From positions 1-39,242 of the forward strand of contig JANWWA010000019.1 of NCBI GenBank assembly GCA_025056565.1: 39,242 nt of DNA, read 5' to 3'. The notes under the pieces are model-generated. The model did not search any database. It was not told where the DNA came from and saw only the letters and a list, made by a program, of their open reading frames with translations. Positions 9,415 to 17,212 of the stretch are shown piece after piece; position 1 is the first letter of the stretch; every line of letters starts with the position of its first letter. The position numbers and the translations under genes were made by a program. Origin of the DNA: Chloroherpetonaceae bacterium (GTDB taxonomy: Bacteria > Bacteroidota > Chlorobiia > Chlorobiales > Thermochlorobacteraceae).

Positions 9415-11895
9415 TCAGGCATTCAGCTCTACTAACTCAGCCTCTCGCTCAACATCTTTGAGCGTGCCCTGCGAAGGGTGAACGGTGATGATGACAAATT
9501 TTGAGGTCGGCGTCTGGCTCTTTTCTGCAACGCTATCAATCGGCACTAGCACATTAGCTTCGGGGAAATAGGTTGCGGTGCACCCTCTTGGAATCGGGAA
9601 CGGCACGGCTACAAAATGCTTCGCCCAACGCTGCTGACCATTGTAGTGGCTACAAAGGTCTAAAATGTCGCCCTGCTTAATGTGCGCCTCGTTCATATCA
9701 TCGGGGTTCATCAAAATCACGCGCCGACCATTGTAAATGCCACGATAGCGGTCATCTAAGCCATAAATGGTGGTGTTGTATTGGTCGTGCGAACGAATGG
9801 TCATCATAATGTATTGACCCTTTTCCAAGCGGTGAATTGGAATATCGTGCAGTGTAAAATGCGCTTTTTTATCCTTTGTGTTAAAAATGCCTTCACGTGC
9901 ACCGTTAGGCAAATAGAACCCGCTTTTTGCGCGCACCCGCTCATTGTATCGTTCAAAGCCCGGAATAGTCTTCTCAATCAGGTCTCGAATGCGGTCGTAG
10001 TCCTCTACCAGCCAATCCCAGTCGACAGTGGATTTTTTGCCCAGTGTGGCCTTTGCTAAACGTGCCACGATTACAGGCTCGCTCAAAAGATGCTCTGATG
10101 CAGGCGGCAAAGACCCCCGAGAAGCGTGCACAATGCCCATTGAGTTCTCCACGCTGACGAACTGCGGTTTGCCGTTTTGAATATCCAGCTCAGTGCGCCC
10201 TAAGCACGGTAGAATCAAGGCTTCTTCACCTGTAATCAGATGTGCACGGTTTAGCTTTGTGGAAACATGCACGGTGAGCTTGCAGCGGCGCAATGCCGCA
10301 GCCGTGTAGTTTGTGTCGGGCGTTGCAGAAAGAAAATTGCCACCCATTGCAAAAAAGACACGCACCTTGCCTTCATACATCGCTTTGATGGCATCGACCA
10401 CATCATAGCCCCAGTGGCGCGGTGGCTCAAAGCCAAAGTTTTTCGCCAGTCGGTCTAAGAAGGCTGGATCGGGGCGCTCGTAAATGCCCATTGTGCGGTC
10501 GCCTTGCACATTGCTATGTCCACGCACAGGGCACACCCCTGTGCCCGGCTTTCCAATCATTCCGCGCAAGAGGTGCAAATTGACCACTTCTTGCACATTC
10601 GCCACGCCGTTCCTGTGCTGCGTTAGCCCCATTGCCCAACACGAAATCATCCGATTGGCGCTGGCAATCATCTTTGCCGCTTCTCGAATTTGCTCGCGCA
10701 ATAGGCCACTTTGCTCCAAAATCACGTCCCACGACTCTGACCGCAACTTTTCAATGAACGCTTCAAAGCCAGTCGTGTGCTCGGCGATGAAGGCTTTGTC
10801 GAAAACCTGACCTGTTCGCTCTTCTTCAGCCAAGAGTTCTTTCATTATACCTTTCAGCAGTGCCACATCACCATTGATGCGCACTTGTAAAAAGAGCGTG
10901 GCAAGCTGCGTGCCCTTGCCGAGCAAGTTCCATACTTCTTGCGGATGCTTGAAACGCTGCAGCCCTGTCTCGGGCAGCGGGTTGATATGAATAATTTTCG
11001 CACCATTGCGCACTGCTGATTGCAACGCACTTAGCATTCGTGGGTGATTAGTGCCTGGATTTTGTCCAATCACCAAAATGAGGTCAGCTAAGTCGAAATC
11101 ACTGAGCTTGACCGTGCCTTTGCCGATGCCAATCGTCTCTTTGAGCGCCACGCCACTGGATTCGTGGCACATATTAGAGCAATCAGGTAGGTTATTGGTG
11201 CCAAACTGGCGCACGAAAAGCTGGTAGAGAAATGCGGCTTCGTTGCTGGTTCTGCCAGAAGTGTAAAAGACAGCTTCGTCAGGCGAGCTACAGGCATTAA
11301 GGTAGCTTGCAATCATCTGGAACGCATCGTCCCATGAAATGGGCTCATAGTGCGCTCGTCCTTTGCGCAGCACCATTGGGTGAACAAGTCGCCCTTGCTT
11401 GCCTAACCAGTAGTCCGTGCGTTGTGATAGCTCAGCGACGCTATGTTTAGCAAAAAATTCTGGCGTCACGCGCTTAGTGGTGGCTTCTTCGGCGACTGCC
11501 TTTGCTCCATTTTCGCAAAACTCTACAATTGAACGGTGGTCATCAGGGTCCGGCCACGCACAGCCCGGGCAGTCAAAGCCATCTACTTGATTAACCTGCA
11601 GGAGCATCTTCATTCCACGCACGACACCCATTTCTGTCACGGCATGCTTCATTGCCGACACGACAGCGGGCACACCTCCTGCCACCGTTTTGCGTTTGCC
11701 TACCGACAAGTGCTCATCGTCTGGTTTTTCTGGTGTGGTTGCACGGGGCAGTGACGCTACGTCAATTGTCTCCGTAGCCTTCTCGCTTGGCTCAAGTGGA
11801 GCATGATTCTCCGCCGCTTTGCCATTCAGTATGTCGCTTGACGGCTTCTCTGGTACTGACATGCTTTTTTCCTCAAAATTTGTGTATGCACCCAT
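9415..11895 (-). CDS. Formate-dehydrogenase-like molybdopterin oxidoreductase (FdhF/YdeP family)
   Basis: The start is ATG 11895, which has a near-perfect AAGGAGG six bases ahead; the earlier start at 11925 would run into the upstream gene. The product is 826 residues, with about 80 extra low-complexity residues ahead of the family's usual beginning. Cys109 and Cys112 (DCPGCAWPDP) and Cys127 (FCENG) are the visible iron-sulfur ligands. Cys243 (NMCHESSG) sits where E. coli FdhF has selenocysteine followed by His, so it is the likely Mo ligand. The C-terminal molybdopterin-guanine-dinucleotide domain begins near YIMMTIRSHDQYNTTIYG. No twin-arginine signal, so cytoplasmic. The family includes E. 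coli YdeP and CbbB-like proteins; most have no proven substrate, so formate is only one possibility. Its neighbours, an FdhD and a small DUF7009-like gene, fit maturation. Confidence 0.9.
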   Translation of the reverse strand: MGAYTNFEEKSMSVPEKPSSDILNGKAAENHAPLEPSEKATETIDVASLPRATTPEKPDDEHLSVGKRKTVAGGVPAVVSAMKHAVTEMGVVRGMKMLLQVNQVDGFDCPGCAWPDPDDHRSIVEFCENGAKAVAEEATTKRVTPEFFAKHSVAELSQRTDYWLGKQGRLVHPMVLRKGRAHYEPISWDDAFQMIASYLNACSSPDEAVFYTSGRTSNEAAFLYQLFVRQFGTNNLPDCSNMCHESSGVALKETIGIGKGTVKLSDFDLADLILVIGQNPGTNHPRMLSALQSAVRNGAKIIHINPLPETGLQRFKHPQEVWNLLGKGTQLATLFLQVRINGDVALLKGIMKELLAEEERTGQVFDKAFIAEHTTGFEAFIEKLRSESWDVILEQSGLLREQIREAAKMIASANRMISCWAMGLTQHRNGVANVQEVVNLHLLRGMIGKPGTGVCPVRGHSNVQGDRTMGIYERPDPAFLDRLAKNFGFEPPRHWGYDVVDAIKAMYEGKVRVFFAMGGNFLSATPDTNYTAAALRRCKLTVHVSTKLNRAHLITGEEALILPCLGRTELDIQNGKPQFVSVENSMGIVHASRGSLPPASEHLLSEPVIVARLAKATLGKKSTVDWDWLVEDYDRIRDLIEKTIPGFERYNERVRAKSGFYLPNGAREGIFNTKDKKAHFTLHDIPIHRLEKGQYIMMTIRSHDQYNTTIYGLDDRYRGIYNGRRVILMNPDDMNEAHIKQGDILDLCSHYNGQQRWAKHFVAVPFPIPRGCTATYFPEANVLVPIDSVAEKSQTPTSKFVIITVHPSQGTLKDVEREAELVELNA

Positions 11896-11900
11896 GGTTC

Positions 11901-11907
11901 CCTCCTT
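11901..11907 (-). promoter_or_regulatory. Strong ribosome binding site deciding the molybdoenzyme start
   Basis: AAGGAGG on the minus strand lies five bases before ATG 11895. It fixes the start 30 bases downstream of the longest frame and leaves 14 bases after the preceding gene's stop, as expected for an operon. Confidence 0.85.
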
Positions 11908-11909
11908 TC

Positions 11910-12326
11910 TTACTGCCCCTCGCAAGCGTCAATTGTAGCTTGATGCCCAACTGCCGCCATCGGATGCGGATAGTTGTCGGATTCATCTTCGTTGGGACGC
12001 GCCGTGAGGCATTGGAAGTCTTTCTCTATCAAGATGCTAAGCGTCTTGCCTTCGCCTACGGACTGCTGTGCTTGCACTCCAACTTGCTCCGTCAGCGCCC
12101 AAGTTTTGGCGATGGCTTCTGGCACCGTAACCGTGATGGTGCAGTGGTCAAATGTGGCGAAAATTCTTTGTGCATCTTTGTCGCTTTTCAGGACATAGCG
12201 CATTGCTTGTGAAGCCTCTGTTCCAAACTCAATGCGGTCTTCGACTTGCCCTGTTTCGGCGATGCGTCGCACTTCACTTTGCGACAGGCGTAGTCGCAGC
12301 GAATTTCCTTTAATGCGTAACTTCAT
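11910..12326 (-). CDS. DUF7009-like protein paired with the molybdoenzyme
   Basis: A 138-residue soluble protein with no signal peptide. Its start (MKLRIKGNSLRLRLSQSEV), the middle ITVTVP and the end LIEKDFQCLTARPNEDESDNYPHP match, from memory, the DUF7009 family of unknown function that is often next to formate-dehydrogenase-like and FdhD genes. AAAGGAG at 12333-12339 sits six bases before the ATG. It is first of a two-gene unit with the molybdoenzyme. The conserved Cys and acidic tail could point to a chaperone or cofactor-insertion helper, but this is inference from position. Confidence 0.75.
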   Translation of the reverse strand: MKLRIKGNSLRLRLSQSEVRRIAETGQVEDRIEFGTEASQAMRYVLKSDKDAQRIFATFDHCTITVTVPEAIAKTWALTEQVGVQAQQSVGEGKTLSILIEKDFQCLTARPNEDESDNYPHPMAAVGHQATIDACEGQ

Positions 12327-12426: not shown

Positions 12427-13833
12427 CTACGTCTCTGACGAGGCGACGAAGTACATTAGGTCATCGAGCTTGCCTTTCTCCACGTGGTCAAAGCGCATAC
12501 CAATTTTTTCCAAGACTTTCCTCGAGGCCACATTGCTTTGGTCTGTTGCCGCCATTACGCGTTGCAGGTGTAGCTGCTGCAGAGCGTAGCGCAAAACGGC
12601 TTGACTGGCTTCGGTGGCATAACCGTGTCCCCAGAAATTGGTTTCAATGCCATAGACCAGTTCGACGCCTGTGTGGACTGGATTGAGTCGAAGGGCGCAA
12701 AAGCCAATGCGCCGCTCTTCATCTTTGAGCCAGAGCGTCCAGATGCCAAATTGCCTTTCCTGAAAATTCTTTATGCTCTCTTCAATTTGTGCACGGATAA
12801 ACTCTCTTGCCACGGGCTCATCGTTAAACAGGTAGCGCCGAAACGCAGGGTCGTTCCATGTCTCAAAGAAGTAGGCTTCGTCGTCAGGACGAATCGGCTG
12901 CAGCCGCAAGTGCACGGTTTCCAGTATCCATTGGCGATTGACTTCGGGGGCAATCGGTGCATAGACACTATCGGAGCGCACACGCCAAGCACTGCTGTAG
13001 ATATTAAATCGCTCGCCTCTCAGGAAGCCAATGAGCGTCATATCGAATTCATCAGCTAACTCAATTGCAAGGCTCGAGGGTGCACCCACTGCTGCTAAAA
13101 TTGGAATGCCTGCCATCAAGGCTTTTTGCACCAGTTCAAAACTGGCGCGACCGCTTACCAACACCAATTCGTTATGCAGTGGAAGACGTTGCTCCAAGAA
13201 CGCCCTGCCGATGAGCTTGTCGAGCGCGTTATGCCGCCCGACATCTTCACGCATCAAGAGTAAATTGCCCCGCACATCAAAGAGCGCCGCTGCATGTAAG
13301 CCGCCTGTCTGGTCAAACACGGCTTGTGCTTTGCGCAGCGTCTCAGGCAATCGGCAAATCACGCTTTTCTCAAAAAACGGTCGATTTTTCGGGAAAGTCG
13401 GGCACGCATTCGCTTGGACGGCTTCAATTGAGACCTTGCCGCACACACCACAGCTCGAGGTAGTGTAAAAATGCCGTTCCAGCCGCTTGAAATCAATTTG
13501 GACATTTGGCTTGAGCTCCACACACACCACATTGCGGTGCAGCACACCTTGAATGGGTCTATCTGTGTAGGCAATACGACTAATTTGGCTGGGGTGCTTC
13601 AAGATGCCTTCCGTGAAGAGAAACCCGACTGCCAGCTCTGCATCGTGCCCAGGCGTGCGCATCGTAACCGCTACGCTTTTCGCTTCCTTTTCGCCCTGAA
13701 TGGCTAAGCGGATTTCCAGCGGCTCTTCAACCGCTACGGTATCTTCGCTCAGTACAATGCCGCCGCTGTGCATTTTTTGCACTTGCACCTTAGCCGTCGG
13801 TTGCTGCGGCGCAACCACCATCTCCTTACTCAT
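12427..13833 (-). CDS. fdhD: FdhD sulfurtransferase fused to a GNAT acetyltransferase
   Basis: The longest frame starts at a GTG (13860); ATG 13833 is preferred because it is the first ATG, although no site has a good ribosome signal. This gives 468 residues. Residues about 10-285 are FdhD, which passes sulfur from IscS to the molybdenum cofactor of formate dehydrogenases: it has the paired cysteines in SSCGVCG (Cys128 and Cys131), REDVGRHNALDK, VSGRASFELVQKA and the usual end GFLRGERFNIY. After a 15-20 residue linker, residues about 302-468 are a RimJ/RimL-type GNAT domain (ETVHLRLQPIRPDD, GIETNFWGHGYATEAS, SNVASRKVLEKIGM). The frame is continuous, so this is a true fusion. It lies directly upstream of the molybdoenzyme pair on the same strand. 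Confidence 0.9.
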   Translation of the reverse strand: MSKEMVVAPQQPTAKVQVQKMHSGGIVLSEDTVAVEEPLEIRLAIQGEKEAKSVAVTMRTPGHDAELAVGFLFTEGILKHPSQISRIAYTDRPIQGVLHRNVVCVELKPNVQIDFKRLERHFYTTSSCGVCGKVSIEAVQANACPTFPKNRPFFEKSVICRLPETLRKAQAVFDQTGGLHAAALFDVRGNLLLMREDVGRHNALDKLIGRAFLEQRLPLHNELVLVSGRASFELVQKALMAGIPILAAVGAPSSLAIELADEFDMTLIGFLRGERFNIYSSAWRVRSDSVYAPIAPEVNRQWILETVHLRLQPIRPDDEAYFFETWNDPAFRRYLFNDEPVAREFIRAQIEESIKNFQERQFGIWTLWLKDEERRIGFCALRLNPVHTGVELVYGIETNFWGHGYATEASQAVLRYALQQLHLQRVMAATDQSNVASRKVLEKIGMRFDHVEKGKLDDLMYFVASSET

Positions 13834-13947
13834 TGCCACATCTGGAAAAGCGTTCAGCACTAATTAAAACAAAACAAATTAAGCATAGAAAGTTCCACCT
13901 TAACACTTCGGCAATCCAGAGACGAATCTACTTGTTTTCAGTGCAAC

Positions 13948-16165: not shown

Positions 16166-16639
16166 TTATTCAATGGTGATTTTTAGCCTGACCTTCGGCG
16201 AGTTATTCTCCACCAAATAAGCGCAGAGCCAATATGTGCCTGCAGGTAAAGCTCCTTTGGTTTTCGGGTGGCGTGGCAAAAATGCAAATGGATAGACTCG
16301 CCTTTGATTGCTTGCCAGCTCAAACATATTTGCGGCACGCCGCCCTTGCACTGGCATGGCGTCAGCTACCTCACCATTCTCATACTGCACCTCTAACGCC
16401 AAGTGCTGCTGGCTCAGAAAGAAGAATGTGCGACGAATGGCAGAATTGTTCCACATCTCAAAGACGCCTGTTATCGTATCTCCTACGCCAAACTTTGCCC
16501 TTGCAGCACGCAGCGTATAGATTACACCGTTCAGCGATACACTTGCCTCTGGCTCTCGGGCAGCAGCAGGTGGCTCGCTGGGTCTCTGGCAACTGCATAG
16601 GCTGCACAAAAGCAGTGCAAGCATTAGTTTTCTACGCAT
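16166..16639 (-). CDS. Lipoprotein, BsuPI-like fold (copy 1)
   Basis: A 157-residue lipoprotein: MRRK, hydrophobic stretch, then LCSC with the likely lipidated Cys17. The mature part is all beta and has the wording of the intracellular proteinase inhibitor BsuPI family (VGDTITGVFEMWNNSAIRRTF, then YTLRAAR before it and PAGTYWLCAYL near the end). Function is unknown; the family name is historic and does not prove inhibition. The next gene upstream is a related lipoprotein of exactly the same length, so this pair is a tandem duplication. It reads toward the hemA unit but is separated from it by 62 bases. Confidence 0.75.
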   Translation of the reverse strand: MRRKLMLALLLCSLCSCQRPSEPPAAAREPEASVSLNGVIYTLRAARAKFGVGDTITGVFEMWNNSAIRRTFFFLSQQHLALEVQYENGEVADAMPVQGRRAANMFELASNQRRVYPFAFLPRHPKTKGALPAGTYWLCAYLVENNSPKVRLKITIE

Positions 16640-16738: not shown

Positions 16739-17212
16739 CTATTCTCGGATCTCAATGCCCAGACGCACGCGTGGCGAGTTATCGTCCAACAAGTATGCAC
16801 TTAGCCAAAACCGTCCCGTCGGTAATGGATGACCTGTTCGCCAATCTATCAAAAGTGCTTGCAAGACCAGTGTTCTGCGCTGGTTCGGTTGCAGGACAAA
16901 CCTGCTTGCTGCTGGTTGAAACAGTATAGGCCACTGCTGCACAGTTTCGCCATTTGGGCGCTGAATCTCAAATCCAAGTTGCTGTTGATTGAGAAACTCA
17001 AACGCTCTCTCGCTGTTTGTGCGATTCCAGACCTCAAATGTGCCCTTGAGCGTGTCGCTTAGCCGCAGTTGCACCTTTTCCAAGCGCAGCGTAAATTCTA
17101 CGCCATCTCTTACTGCACGCGCTTCATTCTCTCCGACAGTTGGTTCAACTGGCGCACTGCAGCCAAACGCACCAAAGAACAGAAGCAGCACAAAATTCCA
17201 TCTTTTCGTCAT
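16739..17212 (-). CDS. Lipoprotein, BsuPI-like fold (copy 2)
   Basis: A 157-residue lipoprotein with a signal peptide ending in GAFGC (Cys18). It parallels copy 1 throughout: FTLRLEK, LSDTLKGTFEVWNRTNSERAF, FLNQQQLGFEIQ, LQPNQRR, PTGRFWLSAYLLDDNSPRVRL. Identity is moderate, so the duplication is old. Probably anchored in the inner or outer membrane facing the periplasm. It starts 145 bases from the divergent typA, and that gap would hold both promoters. Confidence 0.75.
   Translation of the reverse strand: MTKRWNFVLLLFFGAFGCSAPVEPTVGENEARAVRDGVEFTLRLEKVQLRLSDTLKGTFEVWNRTNSERAFEFLNQQQLGFEIQRPNGETVQQWPILFQPAASRFVLQPNQRRTLVLQALLIDWRTGHPLPTGRFWLSAYLLDDNSPRVRLGIEIRE

Follow-up and report, generated by a model that had tools for sequence, protein, structure and literature searches.

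A Conserved Fusion of FdhD with a GNAT Acetyltransferase Domain in the Family of Candidatus Thermochlorobacter

Introduction

FdhD is regarded as a protein devoted to the transfer and delivery of sulfur. In E. coli, the sulfur that it delivers to the bis-MGD cofactor comes from a cysteine desulfurase, and the cysteine pair of its CGVCG motif has a functional role in the protein.

A described locus of related composition is that of Pseudomonas putida PP_0256-PP_0257, where a YdeP-family gene is co-transcribed with fdhD; according to the available part of PMC10308882, deletion of the pair impaired growth with formate, and the same part cites a previously described fdhD mutant that oxidised formate almost normally. 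Among GNAT acetyltransferases, a point of reference here is PA3944 of Pseudomonas aeruginosa, for which the available part of PMC8072286 gives S148 as essential, E102 as more likely involved in substrate recognition, and T141 and N145 as a proposed oxyanion hole.

In this work, we analyse a gene in which FdhD and a GNAT domain occur on a single polypeptide. It is encoded in a 39,242-nucleotide stretch of a Chloroherpetonaceae bacterium (assembly GCA_025056565.1, contig JANWWA010000019.1), the whole of which is hereafter called the window. The original prediction for this DNA knew of no described FdhD-GNAT fusion, and none was found in the open-access literature, as far as its available text goes.

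A Single Reading Frame for FdhD and GNAT

The fusion gene occupies positions 12427-13833 of the minus strand and encodes 468 aa from an ATG start; a GTG codon upstream, at 13860, gives the longest version of this single minus-strand frame (12427-13860, 477 aa), the ATG being the likelier start of the two. Its FdhD domain, which includes an N-terminal leader (12997-13833, minus strand), carries the cysteines C128 (13450-13452) and C131 (13441-13443) in a CGVCG motif that aligns with that of the E. coli structure 4pde, and ends with the residues FNIY at residue 279 (12997-12999). A linker of about 28 residues (12913-12996, minus strand) leads to the GNAT domain (12427-12912, minus strand), which starts near residue 308 (12910-12912). 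Residues 273-336 of the fusion protein lack an in-frame Met codon, which leaves no sign that the GNAT has an ATG start of its own.

Family models recognise both parts of the window protein. For FdhD, the only gene of its kind in this genome, the scores are 234.7 bits with Pfam FdhD-NarQ (PF02634, cut-off 27.2), 311 bits with the NCBIfam equivalog NF001943 (cut-off 269) and 172.8 bits with TIGR00129 (cut-off 140.9), whereas the GNAT scores 107.5 bits with Acetyltransf_3 (PF13302, cut-off 25.4). An FdhD fused to a full GNAT, as first proposed, is thus what the window encodes: one open frame with both domains complete and above their cut-offs. The accompanying description of the GNAT as of the RimJ/RimL type holds at the level of Pfam Acetyltransf_3 (the RimJ/RimL/SpeG kind) but not at that of the curated single-function models, where the domain misses the cut-offs for SpeG (NF011709, 33.4 vs 218) and for RimJ, the ribosomal protein S5-alanine acetyltransferase (NF008072, 21.8 vs 190).

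Conservation of the Fusion within the Family

The family of the window, a small one akin to the green sulfur bacteria that includes Candidatus Thermochlorobacter, was sampled with nine genomes from four genera: g1 (the window's genome, G007 and G008), g2 (G001), g3 (G002) and g4 (G003, G004, G005 and G006). FdhD is present in seven of the nine, and all seven frames are FdhD-GNAT fusions of 461-496 aa with the GNAT at the C-terminus. The two genomes without FdhD are G002 (99% complete) and G003, where a completeness of 84% makes the absence weaker.

All genomes compared are draft assemblies, which is what could favour an assembly or sequencing error that deleted a stop between two genes. The joined frame, however, is also open in the two other g1 genomes and in every one of the seven FdhD-bearing members of the family, and the GNAT halves of g1 share 70-76% protein identity. 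The missed stop that had been raised as a concern is therefore rejected, its remaining probability being negligible, and the fusion is almost certainly genuine and conserved.

A recent joining of two adjacent genes, also put forward in the original prediction, is not supported either, since the fusion spans three genera and unfused FdhD genes have no conserved GNAT neighbour: searches near them with models of both GNAT kinds (see below) yielded no more than two matches, both of them weak (E 0.001 and 0.0056).

Rarity outside the Family

Within Bacteroidota, a phylum sample of 394 genomes contained FdhD in 46, of which the 39 that lie outside the family have frames of 264-372 aa. In a second sample, drawn from one order, FdhD occurred in 118 of 331, eight of which were already in the phylum sample. 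From the resulting 149 FdhD-bearing genomes outside the family, two with short fragments only (83 and 123 aa) were set aside; in three of the 147 assessable ones, a stop interrupts the FdhD match. A C-terminal FdhD fusion was found in none of these 147 Bacteroidota genomes. Frames of 376 aa or shorter are too short to hold a GNAT as well. The two longer frames, of G635 and G495 (547 and 535 aa), were considered as further fusions but turned out to extend at the N-terminal end alone, and none of five frames of 350-376 aa has a C-terminal domain.

A scan of named loci, limited to the best 80 of 556 confirmed matches and covering several phyla, gave two fused genes, both from members of the family: Candidatus Thermochlorobacter aerophilum (PHFL01000039.1) and an entry named "uncultured Chlorobiales bacterium". 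The other 78 of these best 80 loci carry no C-terminal domain on FdhD. An apparent tblastn match into the GNAT part on Taibaiella contig L110 was spurious and ran into a DUF7009 gene. Among plasmids, 80% of the query was covered by none of 584 records matching the window protein and none of 208 matching the g4-type protein. The 78 named loci and the plasmid searches are what represents phyla beyond Bacteroidota, where FdhD-GNAT fusions are possible. Searches of the two f3 genomes with the fusion protein matched GNAT genes alone, and a search of one of them (G095) with the FdhD model gave no match.

The Gene Neighbourhood

Downstream of the fusion gene lie a DUF7009 gene (11910-12326, minus strand; 138 aa; PF22668, 140.1 bits) and a gene for an FdhF/YdeP-family molybdoenzyme (9415-11925, minus strand; up to 836 aa, with an uncertain start codon), which scores 967.5 bits with TIGR01701 against a cut-off of 582.15. 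The YdeP-type neighbour originally proposed is hence confirmed, and the order FdhD-GNAT, DUF7009-like, YdeP-type is kept in six of the seven fused genomes, DUF7009 being assigned by Pfam in the window and by similarity to the window gene elsewhere. In the seventh, G005, the contig stops after the DUF7009-like gene, and YdeP is found at the start of another contig. YdeP exceeds its cut-off in the same seven of nine family genomes as FdhD, while G002 and G003 lack FdhD as well as any YdeP above that cut-off. The outer flanks of the operon vary between genera, and even inside g1.

Among the best 80 of 556 named FdhD loci, a DUF7009-like frame occurs in 35 within the stretch compared, and a frame matching the YdeP model in 50, some of them weakly; some of these weak matches are probably other molybdoenzymes. 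Since DUF7009-like frames are present in 35 of the 80 loci, DUF7009 is a common companion of FdhD, which the GNAT is not, and may be a third maturation partner.

Elsewhere in the window, two adjacent minus-strand frames of 157 aa (16166-16639 and 16739-17212) look alike by eye and have lipoprotein-like starts, a probable tandem duplication; a Pfam search with the first of them gave nothing at E 0.001.

Two GNAT Kinds in One Position

The GNAT half is not the same throughout the family. In the three g1 proteins, the best Pfam match is Acetyltransf_3, with 98-108 bits, whereas in g2 (G001) and g4 (G004, G005 and G006) it is Acetyltransf_1, with 52-56 bits. BLAST between the two kinds gives E values of only 0.032 (g1 vs g4) and 0.23 (g1 vs g2), against 63% identity between the g2 and g4 domains, and FdhD halves that are about 60-66% identical across the fused genera. 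Among solved structures, the g1 kind is nearest to PA3944 (3e-12), followed by SpeG (3e-9), and the g2/g4 kind to Thermoplasma PaiA (E 7e-21). Predicted models of the fusions (pTM 0.57 and 0.64, with an unreliable relative placement of the domains) give a similar picture: the fold matches of the window model include GNAT structures and, after the FdhD entries, lead to PA3944 (4.4e-13), and those of the g4 model to Thermoplasma Ta0374/PaiA (2.6e-14).

As Pfam, BLAST, solved structures and fold matches of the models all differ between them, the g1 and g2/g4 GNATs are two subfamilies of one superfamily, and not one drifted domain. They are not wholly unrelated, for Acetyltransf_3 also scores on the g2/g4 domains, at or barely above its cut-off (24.4-29.0 bits). 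The PaiA resemblance stays below the curated level: three of the four sister-genus proteins were scanned, and they miss both NF053587 (37.4, 36.1 and 43.3 vs 250) and NF041158 (51.2, 67.8 and 53.9 vs 225). No g4-type GNAT occurs in the three g1 genomes at E 1e-10 or better, and the nearest free-standing relatives in the phylum sample are distant, the best matches being 34% for the g1 kind and 30% for the g4 kind.

Evolutionary History of the Fusion

In a tree of FdhD with 108 rows, g1 and g2 are grouped (98/99) and g4 is placed elsewhere with weak support; trees in which all seven fused FdhDs were forced into one clade (p-AU 0.465), or g2 and g4 were forced together without g1 (p-AU 0.47), are not rejected. 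An RpoB tree of 12 rows also groups g1 and g2 (92/94), recovers g4 (100/100) and leaves g3 unresolved; G003, with no match, and G008, with rpoB in pieces, were left out of it. The rpoB matches of G008 (G008:C4:113939-117799) come in three pieces, one of them in a different frame, in a genome that is 96% complete, and are probably frameshift errors of its assembly. Because g1 and g2 are sisters in both trees, the simplest history is one in which the ancestral fusion probably carried a PaiA-type GNAT that was exchanged for an Acetyltransf_3 GNAT in g1. Two independent fusions, or a transfer of the fusion gene between genera, are possible alternatives.

The YdeP tree (window 9415-11925, minus strand, and L139-L143) disagrees with those of FdhD and RpoB: in it, g1 and g4 form a group (100) to which g2 does not belong. 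The operon is therefore a mosaic, and its parts may have been exchanged separately. Such mosaic histories, together with the lack of a conserved GNAT neighbour of unfused FdhD, would fit a pair of unrelated enzymes that were joined by chance and stayed so, each working alone; but fusions in three genera, with two GNAT kinds in one place, exceed a single chance event, and we consider this explanation improbable.

Constraint and Active Site of the GNAT

The two halves of the fusion change at comparable rates at the protein level. Between G004 and G005 of g4, dN is 0.076 in FdhD vs 0.075 in the GNAT half (dS 0.98 vs 0.78), and between G001 and G004 it is 0.34 in both. Within g1, where dS is mostly saturated, dN reaches 0.13-0.19 in the GNAT half vs 0.09-0.11 in FdhD, and the near-identical pair G005-G006, with very few changes, gives 0.010 vs 0.003. 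As these dN values of the GNAT half are comparable to those of FdhD, the GNAT is kept by selection, in the window's genus somewhat less strictly than FdhD.

The acetyl-CoA motif of the window GNAT aligns with that of PA3944. In the HMMER alignment, E391 (12661-12663) and S437 (12523-12525) correspond to E102 and S148 of PA3944, and T430 and N434 to T141 and N145, and the same letters occupy the four positions in both other g1 proteins. Judging from these residues, the GNAT half probably transfers acetyl groups. The retained acetyl-CoA motif would equally suit an acetyl-CoA-binding sensor or a structural module in which acetyl transfer is not under selection, a role that any GNAT could serve, consistent with the exchange; the residues for chemistry in PA3944 are retained as well, however, which makes a module of this type rather unlikely.

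A Proposed Role in Molybdoenzyme Maturation

The explanation we favour is that FdhD-GNAT is a lineage-specific bifunctional maturation protein. Its FdhD half would act as E. coli FdhD does, relaying sulfur between a cysteine desulfurase and the bis-MGD of the YdeP-type enzyme; given the known task of FdhD and the YdeP neighbour, cofactor sulfuration for YdeP is its likely job. The tethered GNAT, held near the FdhD/YdeP complex, would use acetyl-CoA to acetylate an amino group there, on a lysine or at the N-terminus of a protein that may be YdeP, FdhD or a partner, and the maturation or activity of the formate-dehydrogenase-like enzyme would thereby be tied to the supply of acetyl-CoA. The probable exchange of GNAT subfamilies at one and the same tether suggests that nearness to this complex selects the target; the GNAT subfamily would be replaceable, with the tether, more than the pocket, setting what is acetylated.

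Our main reading, to which we give a probability of roughly 0.4, is that the fused GNAT has an acetylation target among the proteins of the maturation complex. Against a protein target, the characterised GNATs closest to the fused ones have small amines (SpeG and PaiA) or polymyxin (PA3944) as substrates. Lysines specific to the fused lineage number none among nine lineage-specific sites in YdeP and two among five in FdhD. These two, K88 and K158 of P0001 (K79 and K149 in the 468-aa numbering), are present in 7/7 fused FdhDs and in 10% and 7% of 101 unfused ones, and as candidate acetylation targets they are too few to carry meaning.

A serious rival, if on balance an unlikely one, is that the GNAT acetylates a polyamine or another small amine, the fusion only securing co-expression or a local supply. 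Polyamine acetyltransferases are among the solved or named proteins closest to each subfamily (SpeG for the window, PaiA for its sisters), and if one such kind had replaced the other, the chemistry would be unchanged. Neither kind, however, reaches the curated SpeG and PaiA cut-offs, the best solved match of the window GNAT is PA3944 and not SpeG, and we know of no link between polyamines and FdhD.

A broader idea, that acetylation is built into the maturation of molybdenum-cofactor enzymes in this family, so that FdhD's own GNAT would modify its formate-dehydrogenase-like client or the complex according to acetyl-CoA and could be exchanged as proximity, and not the pocket, sets the target, is tentative and less likely than not. 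Even so, a GNAT seemingly kept on FdhD through an exchange would hint that acetylation, or control by acetyl-CoA, has a part in the making of a molybdoenzyme, and the presence in one genus of a different GNAT version than in its sister genera suggests that the acetylating activity joined to FdhD is of importance there. The fusion also puts an enzyme and its probable place of action on one chain, which makes the proposal directly testable.

Comparison with Known Systems

The fusion resembles E. coli FdhD (4pde) in having a whole FdhD domain above the Pfam and NCBIfam cut-offs, with its cysteine pair, and an FdhF/YdeP gene in the operon. It differs from unfused FdhDs, 101 frames of which end no more than 25 residues after the domain, in that the window protein continues into a GNAT. 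The pairing of a YdeP-family enzyme with fdhD is shared with P. putida PP_0256-PP_0257, for which the available part of PMC10308882 mentions neither a GNAT nor DUF7009.

On the side of the acetyltransferase, the window GNAT shares with PA3944 the fold, the acetyl-CoA motif and, in the active site, the four aligned residues E, T, N and S, but at about 25% identity the substrate is not transferable from one to the other, and its solved relatives are separate proteins with chains of 168-301 aa. The PaiA N-acetyltransferases (PDB 3f0a, 3k9u and 1tiq) are the closest to the GNAT that the sister genera g2 and g4 carry; they are not of the window's kind, and the sister GNATs themselves fall below the PaiA equivalog cut-offs. 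Finally, the ACT-GNATs of actinobacteria offer a precedent for a GNAT fused to a second domain, which, in the available part of PMC6434083, is an amino-acid-binding regulatory domain, whereas the partner in the fusion reported here is a cofactor-maturation protein.
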